Below, in pieces: positions 7,019 to 42,400 of a DNA stretch of 60,000 nt (positions within the stretch are counted from its first letter, which is position 1; every line of letters starts with the position of its first letter). The notes below the pieces were generated by a model, which was given only the letters and a program-made list of their open reading frames with translations, was not told the origin of the DNA and searched no databases. Location: NCBI RefSeq assembly GCF_026151205.1, contig NC_087076.1:684001-744000 (forward strand), in the 5' to 3' direction. The translations under genes were made by a program, and so were the position numbers. The DNA is from Bolinopsis microptera (lineage: Eukaryota; Ctenophora; Tentaculata; Lobata; Bolinopsidae).

Positions 7019-10006
7019 ATGGTTATGGAACATTTTGTTACACCTTTTCTAGGCATACCCTTTCCAATGCAAGCTTCTTCCGAGGTTAGTTTATCGGTTG
7101 TAAATAATAAACATGATAATATGCAGTTTTAATTATTATATTGTCATAAATGATTCATTTCGTTATCGCACACAGATCAATTATAGCTGAATTAAGCTAA
7201 GTTCGATAAAATGTTTTGTTAATAATACGTAATTTTACCTGAAACATGTGCATTAAGTCTAATGGCCCAAACAACATTAACTAATAACAACTTATATTGC
7301 AGCTCCAAACTCCTTCCCACGGCTCAAACAAAGTGTCCTCCTCCAAGAACAGTGACAGTCGCAAGAACTGCAGAAAGAGGAGAAAGTTGAGCGGGATAAA
7401 AAGGATCTCAGCTACAACCCGGGAGAGGAGCAGAATAGAACACCTCAACTGCGCTTTTATCACGGTAAGTTAGTACTCCGTTCAGCTCGTCACGGTAAGT
7501 TAGTGTTCAGCTCGTCACGGTAAGTTAGTACTCCGTTCAGCTCGTCACGGTAAGTTAGTACTCCGTTCAGCTCGTCACGGTAAGTTAGTACTCCGTTCAG
7601 CTCGTCACGGTAAGTTAGTACTCCGATCAGCTCGTCACGGTAAGTTAGTACTCCGTTCAGCTCGTCACGGTAAGTTAGTACTCCGTTCAGCTCGTCACGG
7701 TAAGTTAGTACTCCGTTCAGCTCGTCACGGTAAGTTAGTACTCCGTTCAGCTCGTCACGGTAAGTAAGTTCTCCGTTCAGCTCGTCACGGTAAGTTAGTA
7801 CTCCGTTCAGCTCGTCACGGTAAGTTAGTACTCCGTTCAGCTCGTCACGGTAAGTTAGTACTCCGTTCAGCTCGTCACGGTAAGTTAGTACTCCGTTCAG
7901 CTCGTCACGGTAAGTAAGTTCTCCGTTCAGCTCGTCACGGTAAGTTAGTACTCCGTTCAGCTCGTCACGGTAAGTTAGTACTCCGTTCAGCTCGTCACAG
8001 TAAGTTAGTACTCGTCATTTTGCGATAACGATTTTATCAATATTGATCTATAAGCTGTAGATGTCTCGCTTTATATATAGTTAAAGATAGATGGCTATAA
8101 TAATAAAACTAATAAATTGTACCAAGATTTTCCTGGTTCTAACTAAGTTCTGATAGGAGGCCGAACAAATGAAGTTTGATGAGATTAGCTGGCTAGAAAT
8201 AAATGTAGATTGTAGATATGTCCACATTGACAGACAGACAACAATTACAGCTGCGGAGTCGTATCCCCACTCAGCCCTCTGATGTGAAGTTAACAAAGGT
8301 TGAGACCCTGCGGCTAGCTATGAGCTACATGATGCACCTGGAGAAGCTTCTGGGGGATATTTCAGAGCAAGAGGGTACAGGCAGCTCCGAGGTCTCATCC
8401 ACTTCGGAGATCAAGACATCGCGGGTTTGTGGTTTTATATTAGTTCACTCTAATTACTTATAAAGTATTAGCTAGAGGTATCAACTAAACGTAACTGGTG
8501 CTGATAGTAATGACTGAAAGCAGTGTGAGGAATGAGTGGCCCTGAATGAGTGCTAACAACTACTCACCTCAGGAGGACGGAGTGGCGTGTCCCCGGGTAG
8601 TTAGAGTCTACCCCTCCTACCCTGTCCACTCAGAACACTCGTGACACGTGGTGTGACGTCATGACACGTGGTGTGACGTCATGACACGTGGTGCTAACAA
8701 CTACTCACCTCAGGAGGACGGAGTGGCGTGTCCCCGGGTAGTTAGAGTCTACCCCTCCTACCCTGTCCACTCAGAACACTCGTGACACGTGGTGTGACGT
8801 CATGACACGTGGTGTGACGTCATGACACGTGGTGCTAACAACTACTCACCTCAGGAGGACGGAGTGGCGTGTCCCCGGGTAGTTAGAGTCTACCCCTCCT
8901 ACCCTGTCCACTCAGAACACTCGTGACACGTGGTGTGACGTCATGACACGTGGTGTGACGTCATGACACGTGGTGCTAACAACTATTCACCTCAGGAGGA
9001 CGGAGTGGCGTGTCCCCGGGTAGTTAGAGTCTACCCCTCCTACCCTGTCCACTCAGAACACTCGTGACACGTGGTGTGACGTCATGACACGTGGTGTGAC
9101 GTCATGACACGTGGTGCTAACAACTACTCACCTCAGGAGGACGGAGTGGCGTGTCCCCGGGTAGTTAGAGTCTACCCCTCCTACCCTGTCCACTCAGAAC
9201 ACTCATGACACGTGGTGTGACGTCATGACACGTGGTGTGACGTCATGACACGTGGTGCTAACAACTACTCACCTCAGGAGGACGGAGTGGCGTGTCCCCG
9301 GGTAGTTAGAGTCTACCCCTCCTACCCTGTCCACTCAGAACACTCGTGACACGTGGTGTGACGTCATGACACGTGGTGTGACGTCATGACACGTGGTGCT
9401 AACAACTACTCACCTCAGGAGGACGGAGTGGCGTGTCCCCGGGTAGTTAGAGTCTACCCCTCCTACCCTGTCCACTCAGAACACTCGTGACACGTGGTGT
9501 GACGTCATGACACGTGGTGTGACGTCATGACACGTGGTGCTAACAACTACTCACCTCAGGAGGACGGAGTGGCGTGTCCCCGGGTAGTTAGAGTCTACCC
9601 CTCCTACCCTGTCCACTCAGAACACTCGTGACACGTGGTGTGACGTCATGACACGTGGTGTGACGTCATGACACGTGGTGCTAACAACTACTCACCTCAG
9701 GAGGACGGAGTGGCGTGTCCCCGGGTAGTTAGAGTCTACCCCTCCTACCCTGTCCACTCAGAACACTCGTGACACGTGGTGTGACGTCATGACACGTGGT
9801 GTGACGTCATGACACGTGGTGCTAATAACTACTCACCCCAGGAGGACGGAGTGGCGTGTCCCCGGGTAGTTAGAGTCTACCCCTCCTACCCTGTCCACTC
9901 AGAACACTCGGAGTACGGGTCCTGGAACCCTCAGTACGGACTCCCTGTCCGACCTATCCCTACCATGGACTCTCATTTCATCCTCAAAAAGGGAGACAAG
10001 AACTAA
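7019..10006 (+). CDS. bHLH transcription factor gene A1 (paraxis/HAND-like class), 4 exons, 188 aa
   Basis: Coding exons are 7019-7084, 7303-7464, 8251-8424 and 9842-10006; all introns are phase 0 with GT-AG ends. The product has a 22-residue leader ([20 protein letters not shown]), a Ser/Lys-rich stretch, a basic region (CRKRRKLSG, then [12 protein letters not shown] with the DNA-contacting Glu of RERxR), helix 1, loop TQPSDVKL and helix 2 ([20 protein letters not shown]). The C-terminus is short and ends KKGDKN. The helix and loop pattern is closest to paraxis/scleraxis/HAND proteins, which dimerise and bind E-boxes in the nucleus; no exact orthologue is claimed. The exon 2-3 junction cuts helix 1 (FIT|LRSRIP). 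Introns 2 and 3 contain reiterated splice sites (separate entries). Exon calls agree across four copies. Confidence 0.85.
7461..8015 (+). repeat. 30-bp minisatellite reiterating the exon-2 splice donor (A1)
   Basis: The exon-2 end CACG|GTAAGT is the first unit of an array of about 19 units, each reading CACGGTAAGTTAGTACTCCG then TTCAGCTCGT. Every unit carries a near-consensus 5' splice site. The unit length is a multiple of 3, so a downstream donor would keep frame, but each unit adds GTA AGT TAG, a stop inside helix 1. A few units are variant (GTAAGTAAGT; the last is CACAGTAAG). Confidence 0.95.
8552..9841 (+). repeat. ~141-bp repeat reiterating the exon-4 acceptor plus E-box/CRE cassette (A1), 10 copies including the true one
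   Basis: Each unit has branch point GTGCTAAC, acceptor ACTCACCTCAG, the first 69 nt of exon 4 ([18 protein letters not shown], then HSEHS), then a TGA stop at the point where the genuine copy continues into [10 protein letters not shown]. The rest of the unit is a cassette of three CACGTG and two TGACGTCA palindromes in 20-bp sub-repeats. The first decoy exon starts at 8573, only 148 nt after exon 3. The last acceptor (AG at 9840-9841) opens the complete exon. Confidence 0.95.
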
Positions 10007-10448
10007 TCCGCTTCACAGCTAATATTTTAGATGTTTTGCTGGTTTAAATCAATTATTAATACAATATATTTATTTATCAAATAGACTTACATAATTTACT
10101 TGATTTTCATTTCATTATATTATTGTAGTAAATTACCTTACATTTTAAGATTCATCCTCGGTTTAAAAAAAATTTCCTCTGAAGCTCTTAGGAAACATAA
10201 CAGAAGGGAATTATTAGTTCTAATACTTCCTTAGATCCTTCAGTTTATGGGTGTTTCATGTTTATAACGATCATTTATTTGAACGTTTATAATTTTATAA
10301 TGGCGTAACGTCGCAGGATTAAGTTTAATGTTATATTTAATTTTATTAAATCGTACGCTATTTACATTGTCCGTTAATTGATCGTTTTACTTTTATAAAT
10401 TCCATCCCAGTACCAAAATTAATGACTCACGTTCTCTCCTTCTTAAGG
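10007..10448. other. 3' flank of bHLH A1, probably 3' UTR
   Basis: AT-rich sequence shared with 29809-30270 in unit 2. No canonical AATAAA stands out close to the stop, so the poly(A) site is not placed. Confidence 0.5.
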
Positions 10449-11290
10449 TACCGTTCATATATTGTCCCACAATGCAGATCCATCTTCATATATTGTCCCA
10501 CAATGCAGATCCATCTTCTTATATTGTCCCACAATGCAGATCCCTCTTCTTATATTGTCCCACAATGCAGAACCCTCTTCTTATATTGTCCCACAATGCA
10601 GATCCATCTTCTTATATTGTCCCACAATGCAGATCCATCTTCTTATATTGTCCCACAATGCAGAACCATCTTCTTATATTGTCCCACAATGCAGAATGCA
10701 GATCCATATTCTTATATTGTCCCACAATGCAGATCCAACTTCTTATATTGCCCCACAATGCAGATCCATCTTCTTATATTGTCCCACAATGCAGATCCAT
10801 CTTCTTATATTGTTCCACAATGCAGATCCATCTTCTTATATTGTCCCACAATGCACATCCCTCTTCTTATATTGTCCCACAATGCAGATCCATCTTCTTA
10901 TATTGTCCCATAATGCAGAACCATCTTCTTATATTGTCCCACAATGCAGATCCCTCTTCTTATATTGTCCCACAATGCAGATCCATCTTCTTATATTGTC
11001 CCACAATGCAGATCCCTCTTCTTATATTGTCCCACAATGCATATCCATCTTCTTTTATTGTCCCACAATGCAGATCCCTCTTCATATATTGTCCCAAAAT
11101 GCAGATCCATCTTCTTATATTGTCCCACAATGCAGATACATCTTCTTATATTGTCCCACAATGCAGATCCCTCTTCATATATTGTCCCACAATGCATATC
11201 CATCTTCATATATTGTCCCACAATGCAGATCCCTCTTCATATATTGTCCCACAATGCAGATCCCTCTTCTTATATTGTCCCACCATCCCT
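10449..11290. repeat. 31-bp satellite downstream of bHLH A1, about 27 units
   Basis: Units read TATTGTCCCACAATGCAGAT then CCATCTTCTTA, with variation at CATA/CTTA and GCAGAT/GCATAT. Each contains the inverted repeat ATTGT-CCC-ACAAT. Because 31 is one more than a multiple of 3, all three plus frames stay open for long distances; the resulting repetitive proteins are not considered genes. The unit-2 counterpart is 30272-31100. Confidence 0.95.
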
Positions 11291-12114: not shown

Positions 12115-15100
12115 ATGGTTATGGAACATTTTGTTACACCTTTTGTTGGCATACCCTTTCCAATGCAAGCTTCTTCCGAGGTTAGTTTATCGGTTGTAAA
12201 TTATAAACATAATATGCAGTTTTAATACTTATATTGTCATACATAATTAATTTCGTTTTATCACACACAGATCAATTATATGTATATTCTTAATTCCCCC
12301 TTGCAGTGCCCCTCCCACCCCCCTCCCCCCCCCCCCCCCCATTTGCGGCCTAAACTACAATAACTTCCACTCCATACTCCCCCTCCTAAACTACAATAAC
12401 TACCACTCCAGACTTCCTCCCCGCCCCCTCAAACTACAATAACTTCCACTCCAGACTTCCTCCCCCTCCTCCTAAACTACAATAACTACCACTCCAGACT
12501 TTCTCCCCCCCCCCCCCTTCCCTAAACTACAATAACTTCCACTCCAGACTTCCTCCTCCCCCCTCAAACTACAATAACTTCCACTCCAGACTTTCTCCCC
12601 CTCCTAAACTACAATAACTTCCACTCCAGACTCCCCCCCCTCCTAAACTACAATAACTTCCACTCCAGACTTCCTCCCCCAACCCCCTTCCTAAATTACA
12701 ATAACTACCACTCCAGACTTCCTCCCCCCCTCAAACTACAATAACTTCCACTCCAGACTTCCTCCCCCTCCTCCTAAACTACAATAACTACCCCTCCAGA
12801 CTTTCTCCCCCCCCCCCTTCCCTAAACTACAATAACTTCCACTCCAGACTTCCTCCTCCCCCCCTCAAACTACAATAACTACCACTCCAGACTTCCTCCC
12901 CCCCCCTCAAACTACAATAACTTCCACTCCAGACTTCCTCCCCCTCCTCCTAAACTACAATAACTACCACTCCAGACTTTCTCCACCCCTTCCCTAAACT
13001 ACAATAACTTCCACTCCAGACTTCCTCCTCCCCCCCCCCTCAAACTACAATAACTACCACTCCAGACTTTGTCCCCCCCCCTTCCCTAAACTACAATAAC
13101 TTCCACTCCAGACTTCCTCCTCCCCCCCTCAAACTACAATAACTTCCACTCCAGACTTCTTCTCCCCATGGCTCAAGCAAGGTGTCCTCCTCTTCTAAGC
13201 ACAGCAGTCGGAAAAATTGCAGAAAGAGGAGAAAGTTGAGCGGAATGAAGAGAATCGCTGCTACCACGCGAGAGAGGAGCAGAATTGAACACCTCAACCT
13301 AGCGTTCATCACGGTAACCTAGCAACATCACGTGTTACCTAGCGTTCATCACGGTAACCTAGCAACATCACGTGTTACCTAGCGTTCATCACGTGTTACC
13401 TAGCGTTCATCACGGTAACCTAGCAACATCACGTGTTACCTAGCAACATCACGTGTAACCTAGCAACATCACGTGTAACCTAGCAACATCACGTGTAACC
13501 TAGCAACATCACGTGTTACCTAGCGTTCATCACGGTAACCTAGCAACATCACGTGTAACCTAGCAACATCACGTGTTACCTAGCGTTTATCACGGTAACC
13601 TAGCCCTTTATTCAGGCTGGGTTGAAATCAAAAGGAGTTTAGATATTAGACTTCTACTTTAAACTTCTAGTTGGGCCAATATTATAGCTCGTGAAATTAT
13701 GGTTAAAGATTGGGCCAATATCTCGTGAACGATCGTTTAGTTGTTCTCGAGTAATAAGACGCACAATGCCTTATACAAATTATTATTTGTTTCCAATTAT
13801 CAAATAAAGGAATTATCCTTCAAGGTTTGCACTTAAAGGGTGAGTAAAGTCAAATTTAACAGCTGTTTTATATACCTTATCGGCCCTAATTTGGCTGGCG
13901 CTAATTTGTTCGACCTTCAACTGGACCTTCAAAAAAACGTTTGCAGTATTATGGATTAGTCAGCTTATTTGTAATTACTTGCCGTATCCGTATAAATACA
14001 AATTTTAAATAGCTAAAATTTGTAAAGTCAAAACTTTTCCGGTCCAAATTTGGCTGGCCAAGAAGTCCAAAGTAGCTGAATTTCGCCAAATGAGTGCCGA
14101 TTAGATTATCTGTGAATATGTCCACATTGACAGACAACAATTACAGTTGCGGAGTCGTATCCCCACACAGCCCTCTGATGTCAAGTTGACAAAGGTTGAG
14201 ACCCTGCGGCTAGCTATGAGCTACATAAGTCATCTGGAGAAACTGGTGGGGGAAATTTCAGAGCAAGAGAAAGGGAGTATTGGGAGTTCAGAAGTTTCAT
14301 CTACTTCAGAGATCAAGACCTCACGGGTTGGTAATTTCAACATTGGAGATTTACCCTAGAGATTAGCCCTGGAGACTAACCCTAGAGATTAACCCTGGAA
14401 ATTAACTCTGTAGATTAACCCTGGAGATTTTCCATAAATATTAGGGAAGGCCTCACGGGTTAGTGATTTCAACACTGGAGATTTTCCCTGAAGATTAACC
14501 CTGGAGATTAACCCTGGAGACTATCCCTGGAGATTAACCCTGAAGATTAACCCTGGAGATTAACCCTGGAGATTAGCCCTGGAGATTAACCCGGGAGATT
14601 AACCCTGGAGAATAACCCTGGAGATTAACCCTGGAGACTAACCCTGGATATTAACCCTGGAGACTAACTCTGAGACTAACTCTGAGACTAACCCTGGAGA
14701 TTTTCCCTGAAGATTAACCCTGAAGATTAACCCTGGAGACTAACCCTGGAGATCAACCCTGGAGATTAGCCCTGGAGATTAACCCTGGAGATTAACCCTG
14801 GAGATTAACCCTGAGACTAACCCTGGAGACTAACCCTGGAGATTAAACCTGGAGATTAACCCTGGAGACTAACCCTGGAGACTAACCCTGGAGATTAACC
14901 CTGGAGATTAACCCTGGAGATTAACCCTGAGACTAACCCTGAGACTAACCCTGGAGACTAACCCTGGAGACTAACCCTGGAGATTAAACCTGGAGATTAA
15001 CCCTGGAGACTAACCCTGGAGACTAACCCTGGAGATTAGCCCTGGAGACTAACCCTGGAGATTAACCCTGGAGATTAACCCTGGAGATTAACCCTGAGAC

Positions 15101-17703
15101 TAACCCTGGAGATTAACCCTGGAGATTAGCCCTGGAGACTAACCCTGGAGATTAACCCTGGAGATTAACCCTGGAGATTAACCCTGGAGACTAACCCTGA
15201 GACTAACCCTGGAGATTAACCCTGGAGATTAACCCTGGAGACTAAACCTGGAGATTAACCCTGGAGACTAACCCTGGAGATTAGCCCTGGAGACTAACCC
15301 TGGAGACTAACCCTGGAGATTAACCCTGGAGATTAACCCTGGAGATTAACCCTGGAGATTAACCCTGGAGATTAACCCTGAGACTAACCCTGGAGATTAA
15401 TCCCGGAGATTAACCCTGCAGATTAGCCCTGGAGACTAACCCTGGAGATTAACCCTGGAGATTAACCCTGGAGACTAACCCTGGAGATCAACCCTGGAGA
15501 TTAACCCTGGAGATTAACCCTGGAGACTAACCCTGGAGACTAACCCTGGAGATTAACCCTGAGACTAACCCTGGAGATTAACCCTGGAGATTAACCCTGG
15601 AGATTAGCCCTGGAGACTAACCCTGGAGACTAACCCTGGAGATTAACCCTGGAGATTAACCCTGGAGATTAAGCAATGGATTATATCACCTCTACTTGAC
15701 TAACTGTTAATGAGCATTTTAACTGATAAATTATTGCTGGAAACATACATTAGAAAATTTAAACGTAACTGGTGCTGATAGTGATGACTGAAAGCAGTGT
15801 GAGGAATGAGTGGCCCTGAATGAGTGCTAATAACTACTCACCCCAGGAGGACGGAGTGGCGTGTCCTCGGGTAGTTAGAGTCTACCCCTCCTACCCTGTC
15901 CACTCAGAACACTCGTGACACGTGGTGTGACGTCATGACACGTGGTGTGACGTCATGACACGTGGTGCTAACAACTACTCACCTCAGGAGGACGGAGTGG
16001 CGTGTCCCCGGGTAGTTAGAGTCTACCCCTCCTACCCTGTCCACTCAGAACACTCGTGACACGTGGTGTGACGTCATGACACGTGGTGTGACGTCATGAC
16101 ACGTGGTGCTAACAACTACTCACCTCAGGAGGACGGAGTGGCGTGTCCCCGGGTAGTTAGAGTCTACCCCTCCTACCCTGTCCACTCAGAACACTCGTGA
16201 CACGTGGTGTGACGTCATGACACGTGGTGTGACGTCATGACACGTGGTGCTAACAACTACTCACCTCAGGAGGCCGGAGTGGCGTGTCCCCGGGTAGTTA
16301 GAGTCTACCCCTCCTACCCTGTCCACTCAGAACACTCGTGACACGTGGTGTGACGTCATGACACGTGGTGTGACGTCATGACACGTGGTGCTAACAACTA
16401 CTCACCTCAGGAGGACGGAGTGGCGTGTCCCCGGGTAGTTAGAGTCTACCCCTCCTACCCTGTCCACTCAGAACACTCGTGACACGTGGTGTGACGTCAT
16501 GACACGTGGTGTGACGTCATGACACGTGGTGCTAACAACTACTCACCTCAGGAGGACGGAGTGGCGTGTCCCCGGGTAGTTAGAGTCTACCCCTCCTACC
16601 CTGTCCACTCAGAACACTCGTGACACGTGGTGTGACGTCATGACACGTGGTGTGACGTCATGACACGTGGTGCTAACAACTACTCACCTCAGGAGGCCGG
16701 AGTGGCGTGTCCCCGGGTAGTTAGAGTCTACCCCTCCTACCCTGTCCACTCAGAACACTCGTGACACGTGGTGTGACGTCATGACACGTGGTGTGACGTC
16801 ATGACACGTGGTGCTAACAACTACTCACCTCAGGAGGACGGAGTGGCGTGTCCCCGGGTAGTTAGAGTCTACCCCTCCTACCCTGTCCACTCAGAACACT
16901 CGTGACACGTGGTGTGACGTCATGACACGTGGTGTGACGTCATGACACGTGGTGCTAACAACTACTCACCCCAGGAGGACGGAGTGGCGTGTCCCCGGGT
17001 AGTTAGAGTCTACCCCTCCTACCCTGTCCACTCAGAACACTCGTGACACGTGGTGTGACGTCATGACACGTGGTGTGACGTCATGACACGTGGTGCTAAC
17101 AACTACTCACCTCAGGAGGACGGAGTGGCGTGTCCCCGGGTAGTTAGAGTCTACCCCTCCTACCCTGTCCACTCAGAACACTCGTGACACGTGGTGTGAC
17201 GTCATGACACGTGGTGTGACGTCATGACACGTGGTGCTAACAACTATTCACCTCAGGAGGACGGAGTGGCGTGTCCCCGGGTAGTTAGAGTCTACCCCTC
17301 CTACCCTGTCCACTCAGAACACTCGTGACACGTGGTGTGACGTCATGACACGTGGTGTGACGTCATGACACGTGGTGCTAACAACTACTCACCTCAGGAG
17401 GACGGAGTGGCGTGTCCCCGGGTAGTTAGAGTCTACCCCTCCTACCCTGTCCACTCAGAACACTCGTGACACGTGGTGTGACGTCATGACACGTGGTGTG
17501 ACGTCATGACACGTGGTGCTAACAACTACTCACCTCAGGAGGACGGAGTGGCGTGTCCCCGGGTAGTTAGAGTCTACCCCTCCTACCCTGTCCACTCAGA
17601 ACACTCGGAGTACGGTTCCTGGAACCCTCAGTACGGACTCCCTGTCCGACCTATCCCTACCATGGACTCTCATTTCATCCTCAAAAAGGGAGACAAGAAC
17701 TAA
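12115..17703 (+). CDS. bHLH transcription factor gene B1, 4 exons, 189 aa
   Basis: Coding exons are 12115-12180, 13155-13313, 14147-14326 and 17539-17703, all phase 0. Exons 1 and 4 encode almost the same residues as in A1 (exon 1 has Val for Leu). Exon 2 differs before the basic region ([20 protein letters not shown] versus LQTPSHGSNK...), and helix 1 has LNLAFIT for LNCAFIT. Exon 3 has [20 protein letters not shown]. The bHLH core ([26 protein letters not shown]) is kept, so E-box binding as a dimer is expected from the family. Intron 1 (974 nt), intron 2 (833 nt) and intron 3 (3212 nt) are mostly tandem repeats that copy the gene's own splice junctions. Confidence 0.85.
12345..13154 (+). 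repeat. ~35-45 bp repeat reiterating the exon-2 acceptor (B1), about 19 units
   Basis: Units read CTAAACTACAATAACTTCC then ACTCCAG|ACTTCCTCC plus a variable C/T run. The last unit's ACTCCAG (AG at 13153-13154) is the inferred acceptor of exon 2, and the exon starts ACTTCTTCTCCCC, itself resembling the unit. Each unit therefore offers a pyrimidine tract, a branch-like CTAAAC and an AG. Confidence 0.9.
13301..13605 (+). repeat. ~20-bp repeat reiterating the exon-2 donor (B1), about 15 units
   Basis: Two alternating unit types start at the exon end: AGCGTTCATCACG|GTAACCT, a copy of the real donor, and AGCAACATCACGTGTTACCT or TAACCT, in which the donor dinucleotide is replaced by an E-box CACGTG. 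Using a downstream donor would add GTA ACC TAG, a stop. The repeat is unrelated in sequence to the 30-bp donor array of the A genes. Confidence 0.9.
14337..15672. repeat. 12-13 bp minisatellite in intron 3 of B1
   Basis: About 100 units of GGAGATTAACCCT or GGAGACTAACCCT with minor variants begin 10 bp after the exon-3 donor. Near 14450 a second copy of the exon-3 end and donor (CCTCACGGGTTAGTGATTTC) lies inside the array, so this junction was copied once as well. Many units contain CTAAC, the branch-point consensus. Confidence 0.9.
15825..17538 (+). repeat. ~141-bp acceptor/E-box/CRE repeat (B1), 13 copies including the true one
   Basis: Same unit as in A1: branch point, CTCACCTCAG acceptor, 69 nt of exon 4, TGA, then three CACGTG and two TGACGTCA sites. 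The first decoy exon begins at 15847. Two units have GGCCGG for GGACGG. The final acceptor at 17537-17538 leads into the full exon. Confidence 0.95.
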
Positions 17704-22576: not shown

Positions 22577-22661
22577 ACAAATGTACCATGTAATTCTATT
22601 CACTATTTTACTGGCAGAAATTAGCGCTAAAAAACCATCTTACAGTCAGTATACGCGGCTC

Positions 22662-26931: not shown

Positions 26932-29808
26932 ATGGTTATGGAACATTTTGTTACACCTTTTCTTGGCATACCCTTTCCAATGCAAGCTTCTTCCGAGGTT
27001 AGTTTATCGGTTGTAAATAATAAACATAATATAGTTTTAATTATTATATTGTCATAAATAATTAATTTCGTTATCGCACACAGATAAATTATAGCTGAAT
27101 TAAGCTAATTTCGATCAAATGTTTTGTTAATAATACGTAATTCTACCTGAAACATGTGCATTAAGTCTAACGGCCCAAACAACATTAACTAATAACCTAT
27201 ATTCCAGCTCCAGACTCCTTCCCACGGCTCAAACAAAGTGTCCTCCTCCAAGAACAGTGACAGTCGCAAGAACTGCAGAAAGAGGAGAAAGTTGAGCGGG
27301 ATAAAAAGGATCTCAGCTACAACCCGGGAGAGGAGCAGAATAGAACACCTCAACTGCGCTTTTATCACGGTAAGTTATTACTCCGTTCAGCTCGTCACGG
27401 TAAGTTAGTACTCCGTTCAGCTCGTCACGGTAAGTTAGTACTCCGTTCAGCTCGTCACGGTAAGTTAGTACTCCGTTCAGCTCGTCACGGTAAGTCAGTA
27501 CTCCGTTCAGCTCGTCACGGTAAGTTATTACTCCGTTCAGCTCGTCACGGTAAGTTAGTACTCCGTTCAGCTCGTCACGGTATGTTAGTACTCCGTTCAG
27601 CTCGTCACGGTAAGTTAGTACTCTGTTCAGCTCGTCACGGTAAGTTAGTACTCCGTTGAGCTCGTCACGGTAAGTTAGTACTCCGTTCAGCTCGTCACGG
27701 TAAGTTAGTACTCCGTTCAGCTCGTCACGGTAAGTTAGTACTCCGTTCAGCTCGTCACGGTAAGTTAGTACTCCGTTGAGCTCGTCACGGTAAGTTAGTA
27801 CTCCGTTCAGCTCGTCACGGTAAGTTAGTACTCCGTTCAGCTCGTCACGGTAAGTTATTACTCCGTTCAGCTCGTCACGGTAAGTTAGTACTCCGTTCAG
27901 CTCGTCACGGTAAGTTAGTACTCCGTTCAGCTCGTCACGGTAAGTTAGTACTCCGTTCAGCTCGTCACGGTAAGTTAGTACTCCGTTCAGCTCGTCACGG
28001 TAAGTTAGTACTCCGTTCAGCTCGTCACGGTAAGTTAGTACTCCGTTCAGCTCGTCACGGTAAGTTAGTACTCCGTTCAGCTCGTCACGGTAAGTTAGTA
28101 CTCCGTTCAGCTCGTCACGGTAAGTTAGTACTCCGTTCAGCTCGTCACGGTAAGTTAGTACTCCGTTCAGCTCGTCACGGTAAGTTAGTACTCCGTTCAG
28201 CTCGTCACGGTAAGTTAGTACTCCGTTCAGCTCGTCACAGTAAGTTAGTACTCCGTTCAGCTCGTCACGGTAAGTTAGTACTCCGTTCAGATCGTCACGG
28301 TAAGTTAGTTTTCGTCAATTTGCGATAACGATTTTATCAATATTGATCTATAATCTGTAGATGTCTCGCTTTATATATAGTTAAAGATAGATGGCTATAA
28401 TAATAAAACTAATAAATTGTACCAACATTTTCCTGGTTCTAACTAAGTTCTGACCAGTAACCAAGATATAACTGAACAGTGGCGTAACGTTACGCCACCG
28501 TAACTGAGCAGTGGCGTAACGTTACTGTAAATAGGAGGCCGAACAAATGAGGTCTGATAAGATTAGCTGGTTAGAAATAAATGTAGATTGTAGATATGTA
28601 CACACAGACAGACAACAATTACAGTTGCGGAGTCGTATCCCCACACAGCCCTCTGATGTGAAGTTAACAAAGGTTGAGACCCTGCGGCTAGCTATGAGCT
28701 ACATGATGCACCTGGAGAAGCTTCTGGGGGATATTTCAGAGCAAGAGGGTACAGGCAGCTCCGAGGTCTCATCCACTTCGGAGATCAAGACTTCACGGGT
28801 TTGTGATTTTACATTAGTTCACTCTAATTACTTATAAAGTATTAGCTAGAGGTATCAACTAAACGTAACTGGTGCTGATAGTGATGACTGATTCAGTCAC
28901 TGAAAGCAGTGTGAGGAATGAGTGGCCCTGAATGAGTGCTAACAACTATTCACCTCAGGAGGACGGAGTGGCGTGTCCCCGGGTAGTTAGAGTCTACCCC
29001 TCCTACCCTGTACACTCAGAACACTCGTGACACGTGGTGTGACGTCATGACACGTGGTGTGACGTCATGACACGTGGTGCTAACAACTACTCACCTCAGG
29101 AGGACGGAGTGGCGTGTCCCCGGGTAGTTAGAGTCTACCCCTCCTACCCTGTACACTCAGAACACTCGTGACACGTGGTGTGACGTCATGACACGTGGTG
29201 TGACGTCATGACACGTGGTGCTAACAACTACTCACCTCAGGAGGACGGAGTGGCGTGTCCCCGGGTAGTTAGAGTCTACCCCTCCTACCCTGTCCACTCA
29301 GAACACTCGTGACACGTGGTGTGACGTCATGACACGTGGTGCTAACAACTACTCACCTCAGGAGGACGGAGTGGCGTGTCCCCGGGTAGTTAGAGTCTAC
29401 CCCTCCTACCCTGTCCACTCAGAACACTCGTGACACGTGGTGTGACGTCATGACACGTGGTGTGACGTCATGACACGTGGTGCTAACAACTACTCACCTC
29501 AGGAGGACGGAGTGGCGTGTCCCCGGGTAGTTAGAGTCTACCCCTCCTACCCTGTCCACTCAGAACACTCGGGACACGTGGTGTGACGTCATGACACGTG
29601 TTGTGACGTCATGACACGTGGTGCTAACAACTACTTACCTCAGGAGGACGGAGTGGCGTGTCCCCGGGTAGTTAGAGTCTACCCCTCCTACCCTGTCCAC
29701 TCAGAACACTCGGAGTACGGTTCCTGGAACCCTCAGTACGGACTCCCTGTCCGACCTATCCCTACCATGGACTCTCATTTCATCCTCAAAAAGGGAGACA
29801 AGAACTAA
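26932..29808 (+). CDS. bHLH transcription factor gene A2, 4 exons, 188 aa
   Basis: Coding exons are 26932-26997, 27208-27369, 28625-28798 and 29644-29808, phase 0. The protein is almost identical to A1: Leu at the same exon-1 position, LQTPSHGSNKVSSSKNSDSR in exon 2, SYMMHLEKLLGDISEQEGTG in exon 3 and the same exon 4. The basic region and both helices are intact. Compared with A1, intron 2 is longer (1255 nt, from extra donor repeats and a hAT remnant) and intron 3 shorter (845 nt, only five decoy acceptors). A1 and A2 are recent duplicates by position and sequence. Confidence 0.85.
27365..28318 (+). repeat. 30-bp minisatellite reiterating the exon-2 splice donor (A2), about 32 units
   Basis: Same unit as in A1 (CACGGTAAGTTAGTACTCCG then TTCAGCTCGT), expanded to about 32 donors starting from the genuine one at 27370. 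Variants include GTAAGTTATT, GTAAGTCAGT, one GTATGT and one CACAGTAAG. Every unit keeps the TAG stop two codons after the donor except where the T is changed (GTAAGTTATT). Confidence 0.95.
28452..28532. mobile_element. hAT-terminus remnants in intron 2 of A2
   Basis: Unit 1 lacks this sequence (8150-8155). It contains CAGTGGCGTAAC joined head to head with GTTACGCCACCG (28477-28500), a palindrome of the same terminal repeat as the hAT-type MITE at 57739-58061, and a second copy CAGTGGCGTAACGTTACTG at 28509-28527. TAACTGAA and TAACTGAG flank the first, compatible with an 8-bp duplication. Confidence 0.65.
28937..29643 (+). repeat. acceptor/E-box/CRE repeat (A2), 6 copies including the true one
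   Basis: Same design as in A1. One unit (around 29290-29340) is the 121-bp form with one CRE. The unit before the real exon ends TCGGGACACG rather than TCGTGACACG, moving the stop a few codons downstream. The first decoy exon starts at 28959, 160 nt after exon 3. The true acceptor reads TACTTACCTCAG. Confidence 0.95.
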
Positions 29809-31307: not shown

Positions 31308-31687
31308 TTCAAAAATTACGATCTATATTGTACTTCGTCCACAAAACAAGATCCTAAATATATACCTTAACTTGTAAAATAGATAGAACAGGAGTCAAAG
31401 CCCAAATTTTAAAGTATTTGGAATATTCTTATTGATTCTAGTTATGCCTTTTTTGAGTTCGCTCCTTGAGTTCTCTGTCTTGATGATATTTGGAACATTC
31501 TACTTACTGGGGTCCCCATCCATGTAACAAGTTTCTAAAGGAACTGTGCCCTGAAACATGACTTGCGAAGATAAGATGAAGTATCGAACGAAAATTTAAT
31601 CACTGAGTCTCCTTTTCTGTAGTAAATTGTGTAGGGTTACCTTCATTGTTAGTGGTATTTAGATATATTAAGGTGCTAGATGTGATA

Positions 31688-34269
31688 AGGACTTTGGTTT
31701 TGGTCGTTTCATGGGTAAACATGGTATGGGTTTGCGCAACGATATGGGAGAAAACTTGTTAGACTTGTTATCAGAATTTGACCTCTTTGCCTCCAACACT
31801 GGTTTTTATCATCCTGCTCGACATACGACCACCTACACTGGCTGGAGGAAGGACTGGAGTGCCGGGCGAAATAGTAAAAAGACGATCCCGGTCTATTCTC
31901 AGATCGATTTCATCCTGTGTCGAAGTAGGTCGAAGCCAATGCTACAAGATTCTAGATCTTATGCAGGCACATTGACATACTCTGATCACAGATTTGTTGT
32001 CACTAGAGTAGACTTTAAGGACATCTGTCTTTGCTATAAACGCCACTCCAAGTCATCCTTAAAGTTCAACACCTCTGAACTCACCTCGAACCCCACCATT
32101 CAGGTGAAATATCGTCAATCCTTAGATGATAACTTAAGTAACACTGTTTCTGCTCTGGATCCAAATTCAGACTTGAATGGCTTACTTGAGTCCATAAAGG
32201 ATGCTGCAAAATCGTCAATTGGTGTCATCAGACACAGGAAACGTAATCGCAGCGACGATGATGAGGTGAAAAACTTATCTAGCCAGCGTTACTTGTTGAG
32301 ACAGCAGCTTAATGATAACCAGTCTTTAGACAGAACCTCACTTAGATCATCTATTAACTGCCTCACCAATCAGATCAAGCAGAGACTTTCTTACATACGA
32401 TCAGCTGCTGCTGATGCTATCTGTAATACCATCAGTTCAACAACAGATAGTAAGAAAATGTTTGAAGCTGTTCGAACCCTGAACTTACCTAAAAGTAAAG
32501 CCCCTTCTAGTATTGGTGTTCATGATGAGCAAGGGTGCAATATTGCAACAGACACTGGTAAAGCTGCCGTAGTTGCTAAGTACCTTGAGCAACAACTTAC
32601 TCGTGATGAAGCACCTTTAGAACCTTTTGTAGGACCTCCTCGCCCACTAGTTAAGCCATTCACTAGTGAAGAAATCGGATCAGCTGCTAGAAGTCTCAAA
32701 AATGGTCGAGCTAACGGCCCAGATGGGATTCCTAATGAGCTTCTCAAGTATTCTACTGGATCAGTACACAGACGTTTTGCAGACATTATCAATAGAAGCT
32801 TCGAGACCAATTCCTACCTTGACCCCATTGGACAGGCAAAGATTACCCCCTTACAGAAGCCAAATAAGCCCATTGGTCCAGTGAAGAATCTACGACCCCT
32901 CACTCTCTCAAATGCTGTTAGAAAGATTCTTTCAATGGCAACCTTGAAGAGAATTGAGAATAAAGTCAATGCCTTCACTGGTCCATGGCAATGTGCTTAC
33001 AAGCAGGGTAGATCATGTGCTGACATTGTATGGTGCCAGCGTGTGATGTTATCAGTTGTCCAGAGGAAGAGGTGGGAATACCATCGTATGGGGATCGACA
33101 TGTCTAGTGCCTTTGACACTATACGACGATCTACCATCCTCGATCTTCTTGTTGAGTGTGGCTGTGATGATGACGAAGTCCGTTTGGTAAGACTTTTGCT
33201 TTCCAACACCAAGCTCAAAGTCAACATCAACGGTACACTGTCTGCTGAATTCCAGAGTTTTCTCGGTGCATTCCAAGGTGACTGTCTGTCTGGATGCTTG
33301 TTCACACTTGTCTTAGCGGGTGCTTTGCGTGACCTCCGTAACAGGCTTGAAACTGCAACGAATAGGCCTAACCCACCTATCACCGATATTGGTCTTCCAC
33401 TTGACAGTGAGTATGCTGATGATATCGACTTCAATGATGAAGATGAAGACAATTTGAGGGAGCTGTTGCCTATTGCAACAGAAGTCCTTAAAGATTGGAA
33501 TCTCTTCGTTAACGAAGACAAAACTGATTTCACTCATGTGTACTTAGCTGAAAAGGGAGCTAAAGACGATCAGGGTAAGCCAATTGCAGGGAACGAGCTC
33601 TGGAGAAAGAGTATCACGCTTGGCTCCATGCTTTGTAGCAAGGAGGACATCTCTAGAAGGATATGTCTGGGATATGCCGCGTTTAACAAATACAAGAAAG
33701 CTTGGAACCATAAGATCCCTCTGAGCAAGAGGCTTCTGTTGTATGAGGCTCTGGTAGTATCCGTTTTAATGTACAATTCATCTTGCTGGGCTGCCCCTAA
33801 ATCAGTATTGGAAAAACTAGATATTGCTCACAGACGTCATCTGCGATCAATTTTGAATTACAAATACCCTCACATCATCTCCAACAAGAACTTGTATAAA
33901 CGCTGCAATAGCGAACCATTGTCAGCTAAAGTGGCTCGTAGTCGGTGGAGGATGCTCGGACATGTACTGCGTGGGCCTACAGATGGCCCAGCCTATTCGT
34001 CGCTTGTTTTTGCTGTCAACACCTTACAGCTTCAAGGGCGGCGTGGAAGACCGCAGTCAAACCTTTTCTCACTGATTCTACACGACCTTAGTGTCCGAAA
34101 ATTATCGTTAAATAATTTATGTGATTTGAACTATTTAACGTTAATTGCTCAGAATAGAGTTAAATGGAGAAGTATGCAGATTGCATGACTTTTGTTTGAG
34201 AAAGATTAGGGGACAGAAATGTTTACTTTGTTTACTATCTGTTTCTTAGAGCTTTTGTTTATATATATA
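31688..34269 (+). mobile_element. 5'-truncated non-LTR retrotransposon with intact 825-codon ORF
   Basis: The ORF 31711-34188 is uninterrupted. Residues 1-100 are the second half of an AP-endonuclease-like domain (NDMGENLLDLL, IDFILCR, YSDHRFVV). The reverse transcriptase follows (GRANGPDGIPNELLKYS, DMSSAFDTI, AFQGDCLSGCLF) with the catalytic SEYADDIDF around residues 566-574. The C-terminal region has RRHLRSILNY and a WRMLGHVLR-type segment. Insertion is exact: TAGATGTGATA occurs at 31677-31687 and again at 34270-34280, and unit 1 holds a single copy near 11607-11617, the empty site. The 3' end is a short (TA)n tail. The start of the endonuclease and any ORF1 are missing, so it is probably dead on arrival. 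Clade not determined. Confidence 0.9.
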
Positions 34270-35705: not shown

Positions 35706-38700
35706 ATGGTTATGGAACATTTTGTTACACCTTTTCTTGGCATACCCTTTCCAATGCAAGCTTCTTCCGAGGTTAGTTTATCGGTTGTAAATTATAAACA
35801 TAATATAGTTTTAATTATTATATTGTCATAAATAATTAATTTCGTTTTATCACACACAGATCAATTATATGTATATTCTTAATTCCCCCTTGCAGTGCCC
35901 CTCCCCCCCCCCCCCCATTTGCGGCCTAAACTACGATAACTTCCACTCCATACTCCCCCTCCTAAACTACAATAACTAACACTCCAGACTTCCTCCCCGC
36001 CCCCTCAAACTACAATAACTTCCACTCCAGACTCCCCCCCTCCTAAACTACAATAACTTCCACTCCAGACTTCCTCCCCAAACCCCCCCCCCCCCCTAAA
36101 CTACAATAACTACCACTCCAGACTTCCTCCCCCCCCCCCTCAAACTACGATAACTTCCACTCCAGACTTCCTCCCCCTCCTCCTAAACTACAATAACTAC
36201 CACTCCAGACTTTCTCCCCCCCCCCTTCCCTAAACTACAATAACTTCCACTCCAGACTTCCTCCTCCCCCCCCTCAAACTACAATAACTTCCACTCCAGA
36301 CTTTCTCCCCCCTCCTAAACTACAATAACTTCCACTCCAGACTCCCCCCCTCCTAAACTACAATAACTTCCACTCCAGACTTCCTCCCCAAACCCCCCCC
36401 CCTAAACTACAATAACTACCACTCCAGACTTCCCCCCCCCCCCCCCCCCTCAAACTACGATAACTTCCACTCCAGACTTCCTCCCCCTCCTCCTAAACTA
36501 CAATAACTACCACTCCAGACTTTCTCCCCCCCCCCCCCCTCAAACTACAATAACTACCACTCCAGACTTCCTCCCCCCCCTCAAACTACAATAACTTCCA
36601 CTCCAGACTTCCTCCCCCTCCTCCTAAACTACAATAACTACCACTCCAGACTTTCTCCACCCCTTCCCTAAACTACAATAACTTCCACTCCAGACTTCCT
36701 CCTCCCCCCCCCTCAAACTACAATAACTACCACTCCAGACTTTGTCCCCCCCCCTTCCCTAAACTACAATAACTTCCACTCCAGACTTCCTCCTCCCCCC
36801 CCCCCCCCTCAAACTACAATAACTTCCACTCCAGACTTCTTCTCCCCATGGCTCAAGCAAGGTGTCCTCCTCTTCTAAGCACAGCAGTCGGAAAAATTGC
36901 AGAAAGAGGAGAAAGTTAAGCGGAATGAAGAGAATCGCTGCTACCACGCGAGAGAGGAGCAGAATTGAACACCTCAACCTAGCGTTCATCACGGTAACCT
37001 AGCAACATCACGTGTTACCTAGCGTTTATCACGGTAACCTAGCAACATCACGTGTAACCTAGCAACATCACGTGTAACCTAGCGTTCATCACGGTAACCT
37101 AACAACATCACGTGTAACCTAGCAACATATCACGTGTTACCTAGCGTTCATCACGGTAAACTAGCCCTTCATTCAGGTTTAGATATTAGACTTCTACTTT
37201 AGACTTCTAGTTGGGCCTTAGTATTATAGCTCGTGAAATTATGGTTAAAGATTGGGCCAATATCTCGTGAACGATCGTTTAGTTGTTCTCGAGTGATAAG
37301 AGGCACAATGCCTTGTAAAAATTATTATTTGTTTCCAATTATCAAATAAAGGAAGTTATCCTTCAAGGTTTGCACTTAAAGGGTGAGTAAAGTAAAATTT
37401 AACAGCTGTTTTTATATACCTTATCGGCCTTAATTTGGCTGGCGCTAATTTGTTCGACCTTCAACCGGACCTTCAAAAAAACTTTTGCAGTATTATGGAT
37501 TAGTCAGCTTATTTGTAATTACTTGCTGTATCCGTATAAATACAAATTTTAAATAGCTGAAATTTGTAAAGTCAAAACATTTCCGGCTCAAATTTGGCTG
37601 GCCAAGAAGTCCAAAGTAGCTGAATTTCGCCAAATGAGTGCCGATTAGATTATCTGTGAATATGTCCACATCGACAGACAACAATTACAGTTGCGGAGTC
37701 GTATCCCCACACAGCCCTCTGATGTCAAGTTGACAAAGGTTGAGACCCTGCGGCTAGCTATGAGCTACATAAGTCATCTGGAGAAACTGGTGGGGGAAAT
37801 TTCAGAGCAAGAGAAAGGGAGTATTGGGAGTTCAGAAGTTTCATCTACTTCAGAGATGAAGACCTCACGGGTTGGTGATTTCAACATTGGAGATTTACCC
37901 TAGAGATTAGCCCTGGAGACTAACCCTAGAGATTAACCCTGGAAATTAACTCTGTAGATTAACCCTGGAAATTTTCCATAAATATTAGGGAAGACCTCAC
38001 GGGTTAATGATTTCAACACTGGAGATTTTCCCTGAAGATTAACCCTGGATATTAACCCTGGAGATTAACCCTGGAGACTAACCCTGGAGATTAACCCTGG
38101 ACACTAACCCTGGAGATTAACCCGGGAGATTAACCCTGGAGATTAACCCTGGAGATTAACCCTGGAGACTAACCCTGGATATTAACCCTGGAGACTAACC
38201 CTGAGACTAACCCTGGAGATTTTCCCTGAAAATTAACCCTGGAGATTAACCCTGGAGACTAACCCTGGAGATTAACCCTGGAGATTAGCCCTGGAGATTA
38301 ACCCTGGAGATTAACCCTGGAGATTAACCCTGAGACTAACCCTGGAGATTAACCCTGGAGATTAGCCCTGGAGATTAACCCTGGAGATTAACCCTGGAGA
38401 CTAACCCTGAGACTAACCCTGGTGATTGATCCTGGAGATTAACCCTGGAGACTAACCCTGGAGATTAACCCTGGAGATTAGCCCTGGAGATTAACCCTGG
38501 AGATTAACCCTGGAGATTAACCCTGGAGATTAACCCTGGAGATTAACCCTGGAGACTAACCCTGAGACTAACCCTGGAGATTAACCCTGGTGATTAACCC
38601 TGGAGATTAACCCTGGAGAAGACTAACCCTGGAGATTAACCCTGGAGATTAACCCTGGAGACTAACCCTGGAGACTAACCCTGGAGATTAACCCTGGAGA

Positions 38701-41700
38701 TTAACCCTGGAGATTAGCCCTGGAGACTAACCCTGGAGACTAACCCTGGAGATTAACCCTGGAGATTAACCCTGGAGATTAGCCCTGGAGATTAACCTTG
38801 GAGATTAGCCCTGGAGACTCACCCTGGAGACTAACCCTGGAGATTTACCCTGGAGATTAACCCTGGAGACTAACCCTGGAGACTAACCCTGGAGATTAAC
38901 CCTGGAGATTAACCCTGGAGACTAACCCTGGAGATTAACCCTGGAGATTAACCCTGGAGACTTACCCTGGAGATTAACCCTAGAGATTAGCCCTGGAGAT
39001 TAACCTTGGAGATTAGCCCTGGAGACTCACCCTGGAGACTAACCCTGGAGATTAGCCCTGGAGACTAACCCTGGAGACTAACCCTGGAGATTAACCCTGG
39101 AGATTAACCCTGGAGATTAGCCCTGGAGATTAACCTTGGAGATTAGCCCTGGAGACTCACCCTGGAGACTAACCCTGGAGATTTACCCTGGAGATTAACC
39201 CTGGAGACTAACCCTGGAGACTAACCCTGGAGATTAACCCTGGAGATTAACCCTGGAGACTAACCCTGGAGATTAACCCTGGAGATTAACCCTGGAGACT
39301 TACCCTGGAGATTAACCCTAGAGATTAACCCTGGAGATTAGCCCTGGAGACTAACCCTGGAGACTAACCCTGGAGATTAACCCTGAGACTGACCCTGGAG
39401 ATTAACCCTGGAGATTAACCCTGAGACTAACCCTGGAGATTAACCCTGGAGACTAACCCTGGAGATTAACCCTGGAGATTAACCCTGAGACTAACCCTAG
39501 AGATTAACCCTGGAGATTAACCCTGAAGATTAACCCTGGAGATTAACCCTGGAGATTAACCCTGGAGATTAACCCTGGAGACTAACCCTGGAGATTGACC
39601 CTGAAGATAAACCCTGGAGACTAACCCTGGAGATTAACCCTAGAGATTAACCCTGGAGATTAGCCCTGGAGACTAACCCTGGAGACTAACCCTGGAGTTT
39701 AACCCTGAGACTGACCCTGAAGATTAACCCTGGAGACTAACCCTGGAGATTAGCCCTGGAGACTAACCCTGGAGACTAACCCTGGAGATTAACCCTGGAG
39801 ATTAATCCTGGAGATTAACTCTGGAGATTAACCCTGGAGATTAAGCAATGGATTATATCACCTCTACTTGATTAACTGTCAATGAGCATTTTAACTGATA
39901 AATTATTGCTTGAAACATACATTAGAAAATTTAAACGTAACTGGTGCTGATAGTGATGACTGAAAGCAGTGTGAGGAATGAGTGGCCCTGAATGAGTGCT
40001 AACAACTACTCACCTCAGGAGGACGGAGTGGCGTGTCCCCGGGTAGTTAGAGTCTACCCCTCCTACCCTGTCCACTCAGAACACTCGTGACACGTGGTGT
40101 GACGTCATGACACGTGGTGTGACGTCATGACACGTGGTGCTAACAACTACTCACCTCAGGAGGACGGAGTGGCGTGTCCCCGGGTAGTTAGAGTCTACCC
40201 CTCCTACCCTGTACACTCAGAACACTCGTGACACGTGGTGTGACGTCATGACACGTGGTGTGACGTCATGACACGTGGTGTGACGTCATGACACGTGGTG
40301 CTAACAACTACTCACCTCAGGAGGACGGAGTGGCGTGTCCCCGGGTAGTTAGAGTCTACCCCTCCTACCCTGTCCACTCAGAACACTCGTGACACGTGGT
40401 GTGACGTCATGACACGTGGTGCTAACAACTACTCACCTCAGGAGGACGGAGTGGCGTGTCCCCGGGTAGTTAGAGTCTACCCCTCCTACCCTGTCCACTC
40501 AGAACACTCGTGACACGTGGTGTGACGTCATGACACGTGGTGCTAACAACTACTCACCTCAGGAGGACGGAGTGGCGTGTCCCCGGGTAGTTATAGTCTA
40601 CCCCTCCTACCCTGTCCACTCAGAACACTCGTGACACGTGGTGTGACGTCATGACACGTGGTGCTAACAACTACTCACCTCAGGAGGACGGAGTGGCGTG
40701 TCCCCGGGTAGTTAGAGTCTACCCCTCCTACCCTGTCCACTCAGAACACTCGTGACACGTGGTGTGACGTCATGACACGTGGTGCTAACAACTACTCACC
40801 TCAGGAGGACGGAGTGGCGTGTCCCCGGGTAGTTAGAGTCTACCCCTCCTACCCTGTCCACTCAGAACACTCGGGACACGTGGTGTGACGTCATGACACG
40901 TGGTGCTAACAACTACTCACCTCAGGAGGACGGAGTGGCGTGTCCCCGGGTAGTTAGAGTCTACCCCTCCTACCCTGTCCACTCAGAACACTCGTGACAC
41001 GTGGTGTGACGTCATGACACGTGGTGTGACGTCATGACACGTGGTGCTAACAACTACTCACCTCAGGAGGACGGAGTGGCGTGTCCCCGGGTAGTTAGAG
41101 TCTACCCCTCCTACCCTGTCCACTCAGAACACTCGTGACACGTGGTGTGACGTCATGACACGTGGTGCTAACAACTACTCACCTCAGGAGGACGGAGTGG
41201 CGTGTCCCCGGGTAGTTAGAGTCTACCCCTCCTACCCTGTCCACTCAGAACACTCGGGACACGTGGTGTGACGTCATGACACGTGGTGTGACGTCATGAC
41301 ACGTGGTGCTAACAACTACTCACCTCAGGAGGACGGAGTGGCGTGTCCCCGGGTAGTTAGAGTCTACCCCTCCTACCCTGTCCACTCAGAACACTCGTGA
41401 CACGTGGTGTGACGTCATGACACGTGGTGTGACGTCATGACACGTGGTGCTAACAACTACTCACCCCAGGAGGACGGAGTGGCGTGTCCCCGGGTAGTTA
41501 GAGTCTACCCCTCCTACCCTGTCCACTCAGAACACTCGTGACACGTGGTGTGACGTCATGACACGTGGTGCTAACAACTACTCACCCCAGGAGGACGGAG
41601 TGGCGTGTCCCCGGGTAGTTAGAGTCTACCCCTCCTACCCTGTCCACTCAGAACACTCGTGACACGTGGTGTGACGTCATGACACGTGGTGCTAACAACT

Positions 41701-42400
41701 ACTCACCTCAGGAGGACGGAGTGGCGTGTCCCCGGGTAGTTAGAGTCTACCCCTCCTACCCTGTCCACTCAGAACACTCGTGACACGTGGTGTGACGTCA
41801 TGACACGTGGTGTGACGTCATGACACGTGGTGCTAACAACTACTCACCTCAGGAGGACGGAGTGGCGTGTCCCCGGGTAGTTAGAGTCTACCCCTCCTAC
41901 CCTGTCCACTCAGAACACTCGTGACACGTGGTGTGACGTCATGACACGTGGTGCTAACAACTACTCACCTCAGGAGGACGGAGTGGCGTGTCCCCGGGTA
42001 GTTAGAGTCTACCCCTCCTACCCTGTCCACTCAGAACACTCGTGACACGTGGTGTGACGTCATGACACGTGGTGCTAACAACTACTCACCTCAGGAGGAC
42101 GGAGTGGCGTGTCCCCGGGTAGTTATAGTCTACCCCTCCTACCCTGTCCACTCAGAACACTCGGGACACGTGGTGTGACGTCATGACACGTGGTGTGACG
42201 TCATGACACGTGGTGCTAACAACTACTCACCTCAGGAGGACGGAGTGGCGTGTCCCCGGGTAGTTAGAGTCTACCCCTCCTACCCTGTCCACTCAGAACA
42301 CTCGGAGTACGGTTCCTGGAACCCTCAGTACGGACTCCCTGTCCGACCTATCCCTACCATGGACTCTCATTTCATCCTCAAAAAGGGAGACAAGAACTAA
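35706..42400 (+). CDS. bHLH transcription factor gene B2, 4 exons, 189 aa
   Basis: Coding exons are 35706-35771, 36835-36993, 37691-37870 and 42236-42400, phase 0. The product matches B1 closely ([47 protein letters not shown]). Visible differences are Leu versus Val in exon 1 and EMKTSR versus EIKTSR at the end of exon 3. All bHLH core residues are present. Introns are 1063, 697 and 4365 nt and almost wholly tandem repeats. Intron 3 is the longest of the four, with 17 decoy acceptors and about 150 units of the 13-bp repeat. Expression status cannot be read from sequence. Confidence 0.85.
35925..36834 (+). repeat. exon-2 acceptor repeat (B2), about 21 units
   Basis: Same unit as in B1, each with AATAACTTCCACTCCAG or AATAACTACCACTCCAG followed by ACTT and a C/T run. 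Some units have ACTACGATAAC. The variant with TCCTCCCCAAACCC (36067-36095) matches the stray unit at the segmental duplication junction. Confidence 0.9.
36981..37165 (+). repeat. exon-2 donor repeat (B2), about 9 units
   Basis: Alternating ATCACG|GTAACCT and ATCACGTGTAACCT units of about 20 bp, shorter than in B1. The genuine donor is at 36994. Confidence 0.9.
37881..39845. repeat. 12-13 bp minisatellite in intron 3 of B2, about 150 units
   Basis: GGAGATTAACCCT/GGAGACTAACCCT units with higher-order blocks (for example a ~230-bp block at 38760-38990 that recurs at 39110-39330). A copied exon-3 donor with CCTCACGGGTTAATGATTTC lies near 37996. Confidence 0.9.
39989..42235 (+). repeat. acceptor/E-box/CRE repeat (B2), 18 copies including the true one
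   Basis: A mixture of 141-bp units (two CREs) and 121-bp units (one CRE), plus one unit near 40230-40300 with three CREs. Each has CTAAC, CTCACCTCAG or CTCACCCCAG, 69 nt of exon 4 and a stop. Three decoys use TCGGGACACG. The first decoy exon starts at 40019; the real one at 42236. Confidence 0.95.

Follow-up and report, generated by a model that had tools for sequence, protein, structure and literature searches.

All four predicted basic helix-loop-helix (bHLH) genes, here called A to D, in a 60,000-nucleotide window of contig NC_087076.1 (positions 684,001 to 744,000, forward strand; positions below are those of the window) contain tandem arrays in which splice junctions are reiterated by the repeat unit. 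Arrays of this design were also present in several unrelated genes of the same, probably ctenophore, genome, in one case flanking a single exon on either side and numbering at least about 100 copies. These border-spanning arrays are real and striking, but they are of a known kind, the "mirages" of amphioxus. The best account, and in our judgment a fairly probable one, is that minisatellites of the mirage type turn over while splicing relies on the outermost sites. Arrays would have grown through duplication, slippage, and unequal exchange of the ordinary sort, acting on a stretch in which an exon border lay by chance, and in a genome with many minisatellites, introns would often be hit. A donor array would do no harm as long as splicing takes the first donor, on the exon side, and an acceptor array none as long as it takes the last acceptor, again on the exon side, the rest staying intronic in either case.

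Junction arrays in four bHLH genes

The four genes share a four-exon plan on the + strand and encode predicted proteins of 188 to 189 amino acids. A profile scan of the joined product, run for gene A only, recovered a complete HLH domain (PF00010, positions 1 to 53 of 53, E = 2.4e-14), with helix 1 completed exactly at the join of exons 2 and 3 (AFIT/LRSRIP; here and below, a slash marks the exon border), while single exons of the four genes matched PF00010 over positions 22 to 53 only. Exon borders were predicted from this match and from nonsynonymous and synonymous divergence (dN and dS). Purifying selection appears to act on the A and B proteins, since dN was far below dS between A and B (0.063 versus 0.39) and between A and C (identical proteins, dN of 0, dS of 0.056); B and D (dN of 0.0046, dS of 0.0076) differ by too few changes for a verdict on selection. 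Behind the exon-4 array, the C-terminal tail is intact in all four genes, with 1 of 96 nucleotides differing between A and each of the others. A fifth member of the family was not found among the best candidates in the genome (264.65-Mb assembly, 232 contigs), where the next best match had an E value of 0.03.

A first-pass annotation of the window had proposed that the repeat units in these genes carry copies of splice junctions, and counts of donors and acceptors in each array bore this out (Table 1). The exon-2 donor array, described at first for A and B, is present in C and D as well. In A and C, the donor TCACG/GTAAGT lies in a 30-bp unit (counted as TCAC[AG]/GTAAGT, 19 in A and 31 in C), and in B and D, the donor ATCACG/GTAA lies in a different, 20-bp unit with 16 exonic and 4 intronic nucleotides (five and four copies). 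The exon-2 acceptor array reported for B (18 copies) recurs in D (20 copies), as does the single extra copy of the exon-3 donor (14453 in B, 37997 in D). The exon-4 acceptor, accompanied by a CTAAC branch-like motif and 69 coding nucleotides, was confirmed in all four genes in units of 121, 141, or 161 bp, with AG, itself part of the search pattern, present in all 47 units. Copy numbers differ among the four genes, which are paralogues or unmerged haplotypes, with 19 and 31 donors in A and C and 10, 13, 6, and 18 exon-4 acceptors in A, B, C, and D. One element of the description needed revision: the minisatellites were said to begin or end exactly at exon borders, but the arrays straddle the borders, and no border lies within the 13-bp arrays in intron 3 of B and D.

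The segment holding C and D (about 24.4 to 44.5 kb) duplicates the segment holding A and B (about 3.8 to 21.0 kb) as a copy of about 20 kb, which could reflect genuine duplication or a haplotype that was not merged. The statement that all four genes are affected stands in that each has arrays, but treating them as four independent cases was rejected, C and D being copies of A and B. This relationship leaves about four independent arrays. Among the matches listed of at least 400 bp, gene A matches gene B at 96.6% around exon 1 and at 99.2% over the exon-4 block, with no such match for the part between, a pattern that suggests gene conversion between A and B.

Table 1. Predicted bHLH genes and the arrays inside them, by window position
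Feature	Position	Strand	Description
bHLH gene A	7019..10006	+	exons 7019-7084, 7303-7464, 8251-8424, 9842-10006; full-length model
A exon-2 donor array	7460..8013	+	30-bp unit (5 exonic + 25 intronic nt), 19 donor copies
A exon-4 acceptor array	8550..9910	+	141-bp unit with branch-like CTAAC, acceptor, and 69 coding nt; 10 acceptors
bHLH gene B	12115..17703	+	exons 12115-12180, 13155-13313, 14147-14326, 17539-17703
B exon-2 acceptor array	12352..13167	+	about 43-bp unit, 18 copies of CTCCAG/ACT
B exon-2 donor array	13298..13604	+	20-bp unit CCTAGCGTTCATCACG/GTAA; 5 donor copies, 10 CACGTG in other units
B 13-bp intron-3 array	14344..15672	+	unit without junction; one extra exon-3 donor copy at 14453
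B exon-4 acceptor array	15824..17607	+	13 acceptors
bHLH gene C	26932..29808	+	exons 26932-26997, 27208-27369, 28625-28798, 29644-29808
C exon-2 donor array	27365..28309	+	30-bp unit, 31 donor copies
C exon-4 acceptor array	28936..29713	+	6 acceptors, 121/141-bp units
bHLH gene D	35706..42400	+	exons 35706-35771, 36835-36993, 37691-37870, 42236-42400
D exon-2 acceptor array	35925..36847	+	about 43-bp unit, 20 copies of CTCCAG/ACT
D exon-2 donor array	36978..37165	+	20-bp unit, 4 donor copies, 5 CACGTG in other units
D 13-bp intron-3 array	37888..39844	+	unit without junction; one extra exon-3 donor copy at 37997
D exon-4 acceptor array	39996..42306	+	18 acceptors, 121/141/161-bp units

Further arrays accompany the genes. 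A 40-bp array with an inverted repeat around GTTGTGATACAAC in its unit lies upstream of A (5874-6527) and of C (25881-26465), and 31-bp and 13-bp arrays lie downstream of the genes (10454-11283 and 30277-31098; 18399-20379 and 43096-43811).

Predicted effect of inner splice sites

Nearly every extra splice site is predicted to truncate the protein. A single exon-2 donor keeps the frame and would give the full product in each of A (of 19 donors), B (of 5), and D (of 4), and two of the 31 do so in C, where the second owes its open frame to TAT instead of TAG in the first unit. At exon 4, the last acceptor of each gene (n = 4) reads into the tail, for 54 codons, and the other 43 of the 47 acceptors lead to a stop after 23 codons (27 in four units). 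Mirage-type turnover that is close to neutral is favored because nearly only the outermost sites keep the frame and because the tail is intact in A to D.

These truncations are also the starting point for an alternative that we consider unlikely, in which inner and outer sites compete and array copy number sets the ratio of full-length to shortened protein, the latter having 23 exon-4 codons or an exon-2 stop inside helix 1. Choice of any exon-4 acceptor but the last would give a last-exon truncation without the 31-amino-acid tail in all four genes, and GTAAGT is kept in 47 of the 48 full 30-bp units of A and C, both as competition of this sort would have it. However, recent turnover can account for the homogeneity of the units, and the tail stays open in all four gene copies. 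Variation at splice-motif positions of the 48 units was lower than at other positions but not significantly so (2 of 432 versus 13 of 1008 cells; Fisher P = 0.26, from a test with little power on units that are nearly identical). The comparison thus gives no sign of selection that preserves the extra sites.

The motif content of the units raises another alternative, in which they would serve as binding sites (CACGTG, TGACGTCA) within intronic enhancers and their overlap with junctions would be incidental. Exon-4 arrays of A, B, C, and D hold 27, 36, 14, and 42 copies of CACGTG and 18, 24, 9, and 25 copies of TGACGTCA (perfect palindromes), and the donor arrays add 10 CACGTG in B and 5 in D. 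Such counts follow from a few units being repeated, however, and both motifs are missing from the 30-bp consensus unit of A and C and, by inspection, from the units listed for junction arrays elsewhere in the genome; a regulatory role is very unlikely as the explanation of the arrays.

Border-spanning arrays elsewhere in the genome

The view that the architecture is peculiar to one gene family in this genome was rejected: junction arrays are also present in unrelated genes (GNL2-, LMF-, UBE2W-, FIG4-, and Rab-like). In the GNL2/NOG2-like gene, a single exon lies between an acceptor array with a 41-bp unit and a donor array whose 38-bp unit is repeated at least about 100 times, and this exon aligns from the acceptor side to the donor codon with a 731-amino-acid PDB chain (nucleolar GTP-binding protein 2, E = 2e-14). 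The LMF-like gene has a 65-bp donor array of 30 copies (LMF1_C, E = 4.3e-29), the UBE2W-like gene a 45-bp acceptor array (E = 3.5e-23), and the FIG4-like gene a 26-bp acceptor array (E = 1.2e-13).

These cases come from loci in which the flanks of 20 arrays were read, 12 of them chosen by splice motif (L006 to L015, L017, and L018) and 8 by unrelated motifs (L016 and L019 to L025). On this reading, a border was reached by 7 of the 12 splice-motif arrays versus 1 of the 8 others (L019, from an open frame only), a biased comparison. Overlap with the border had clear homology support at L006, L014, and L017. At L015, homology was present, but array and exon overlap by at most 5 nucleotides, perhaps none, with two AGs a few nucleotides apart at the border; the two exons there align with neighboring portions of PF00383, and guanine deaminase is matched by the second. 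This second exon is covered by a tandem duplication of 287 bp (2.0 copies, L015:2313-2882) beside the acceptor array. Calls at L009, L013, and L018 were based on open frame and splice motif only. No Pfam match was found for the border exons of L009, L013, L018, and L019, nor any PDB match for those of L013 and L018; exons neighboring the borders of L013, L018, and L019 had matches under curated cut-offs. Two further arrays in these loci straddle a border, the 41-bp array of L006 and the 65-bp array of L007.

Several candidates were rejected. At L007, the 14-bp array lies directly against an acceptor of the opposite strand; the arrays of L008, L010, and L011 start about 12 to 51 nucleotides inside the intron, with exon ends judged by eye; and L012 was read as not straddling. 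Among arrays chosen by unrelated motifs, none of the six at L020 to L025 clearly straddled a border (L020 starts 4 nucleotides past a likely donor, and L024 is ambiguous), and the array of L016 resembles an acceptor array next to a coding exon that was not confirmed.

A sample not chosen by repeats was taken from Ras-family genes. It comprised 26 regions with at least two neighboring exon matches among the matches listed, with 38 introns and 64,246 bp; borders were placed from match ends by eye, and the sample is a subset of such genes, with L026 to L049, mostly single-exon genes, left out. Repeats lay over a border in 4 of the 38 introns. In L064, a Rab-like donor is contained in an 11-bp unit of 18 copies, the sole case of the four in which an intact junction is repeated many times. 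The donor of L069 lies in a 34-bp unit, with two copies up to the end of the piece examined and the second junction mutated; in L051, the exon end is duplicated and the second copy lacks the donor; and the acceptor of L075 is in 2.7 imperfect copies. Arrays merely abutting or near a border (L070, L054, L072, and the donor side of L075) were not counted. Random placement of the 32 arrays in these introns gave an expectation of 2.1 cases, or 1.1 once long units are set aside (P = 0.13 and 0.02), and at a Tandem Repeats Finder score of at least 100, 2 cases were observed versus 1.5 or 0.5 expected (P = 0.45 and 0.09). Border repeats are not rare in this genome and are at most mildly in excess. 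Near-neutral turnover of mirage type is favored on this side too, because the same structure occurs in unrelated genes and the border repeats of Ras-family genes are within a few-fold of random.

Several observations weigh against near-neutral turnover, and some of them would suit preferential multiplication of exon borders by a mechanism linked to splicing, to transcription, or to the growth of introns. Under random placement of units in the collapsed genes A and B, finding 4 of 5 independent arrays over a border has a P of about 0.002 (post hoc, with the 141-bp array counted once), a value weakened because these genes were picked for having the border pattern. Tandem repeats make up 48 and 63% of two bHLH-cluster stretches versus 0 to 2.1% of three neighboring stretches (2200-5800, 21100-25800, and 44500-60000), and a local factor therefore appears to favor arrays in the cluster. 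The genome was also scanned whole for three motif copies 15 to 45 bp apart, with both strands summed. Tandem matches numbered 4685 for GGTAAGT versus 42 for the reversed control, 1469 for AAGGTAAG versus 6, and 431 for the full donor consensus, CAGGTAAGT, versus 0. The excess of splice-motif over unrelated-motif arrays at borders, biased as noted above, points toward preferential multiplication of borders. A 1.1-kb C-rich (CCCCTC-like) array close to the window start (1064-2158) lies outside the three neighboring stretches counted.

The motif counts were not accepted as proof of enrichment. True splice motifs are expected to be commoner than their reverse in any genome, and the counts were not normalized for this. 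The acceptor motif TTTCAGG had 1252 matches versus 316 reversed, unrelated motifs with the composition of GGTAAGT had 1284 and 1914, and those with the composition of CAGGTAAGT had 103 and 100, so that controls range from 0 to 1914. Distinct arrays among the matches listed were nine for CAGGTAAGT, four for the control AGTGACATG (nearly all of its 103 matches), and nine for TGAATGG (all 42). Donor arrays are common in the genome; because long arrays dominate the counts and motif frequency was not normalized, the counts show commonness and do not speak for targeting. The first-pass suggestion of a process targeted to splice sites is not established, because 4 of 38 Ras-family introns compare with 1.1 to 2.1 expected and unrelated motifs form arrays too, and we regard preferential multiplication of borders as improbable. 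Joining both ideas, a lineage-wide, border-seeded amplification in which introns grow by reiterated edges while the number of exon-4 acceptors in the bHLH genes tunes the share of tail-less protein seems to us quite unlikely.

Other features of the window and genome were recorded in passing. Short degenerate TTAGGG- or AACCCT-like arrays occur at 5505-5590, 22289-22369, and 49306-49385. A reverse transcriptase frame lies inside the C/D copy (31672-34188; RVT_1, E = 1.6e-20), and a second, at 44640-45539, has a weak match under the cut-off. On the - strand, a frame at 51745-53859 has LDLa and 7tm_1 matches just under curated cut-offs, and a shorter frame similar to it by eye (23576-24220) is located where the first of the two segment copies ends. 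A short TTTCAGGCGCGCGACG repeat, perhaps representing dispersed mobile-element ends, is found in both orientations at C1:639713, 639831, and 656313, at C2:1728824 and 1748610, and at other sites. An innexin search of the genome gave 18 matches, including genes that appear in two copies of equal score at C1:4254005 and 4378223 and at C7:6754013 and 6935049, perhaps recent duplicates or unmerged haplotypes. One Antp-type homeodomain query gave 19 matches with 30 to 55% identity, none close to Hox, a missing match being no proof of absence. Taken with what is known of animal genomes, in which innexins serve as a marker, these two results point to a ctenophore.

Relation to known systems

Arrays of this kind make two questions testable at scale. 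One is how the spliceosome chooses among dozens of near-identical sites, for which the arrays are natural experiments in first-donor and last-acceptor choice. The other is whether introns grow or are gained via tandem duplication of their edges.

The first-pass annotation knew of no described family with such a design, but mirages were already in print: tandem repeats over exon-intron boundaries are reported for amphioxus Adh3 and the globins BflGb6 and BflGb9, and the phenomenon may be more general in cephalochordates (PMC3087553). As in amphioxus, a minisatellite lies over an exon-intron border, 5' or 3', and many units have AG or GT signals; in genes A to D, the unit spans a predicted exon-intron boundary and units carry GT or AG. 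Copy number in the amphioxus account differs between haplotypes; the copies compared here are paralogues or unmerged haplotypes. Unlike the globin example as described there, with 3 to 6 units, arrays here have up to 31, and the one in the GNL2-like gene has at least about 100. The present cases also differ from that account in being in another phylum, at several borders per gene, and in several unrelated genes of one genome.

A literature search, with subscription journals mostly outside it, showed no ctenophore precedent for border-spanning arrays among the papers listed. In the ctenophore Hormiphora californensis, 13% of the genome was classed as repeats by Tandem Repeats Finder and heterozygosity is high (PMC8527503), in keeping with a repeat-rich background. 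Intron gain by tandem genomic duplication links intragenic tandem duplication to splicing (PMC4974935); existing intron edges are multiplied here, and no new intron was seen.

Two other systems share parts of the pattern. In an interferon-induced transcript, a minisatellite supplies multiple splice donors (Nucleic Acids Res 1995 23:1854, cited in PMC2572611). The likeness lies in the many donor sites from one minisatellite; in the present genes, acceptors are reiterated too, and inner sites are predicted from sequence. The gene behind that transcript is reportedly human 6-16/IFI6. Variable internal tandem repeats in genes of human segmental duplications resemble the bHLH arrays in being minisatellites of recent paralogues, some at exon-intron boundaries, that alter gene structure (PMC2812944). 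Those repeats were considered mainly for exon length and novel introns, whereas in the arrays described here the border itself is reiterated many times.

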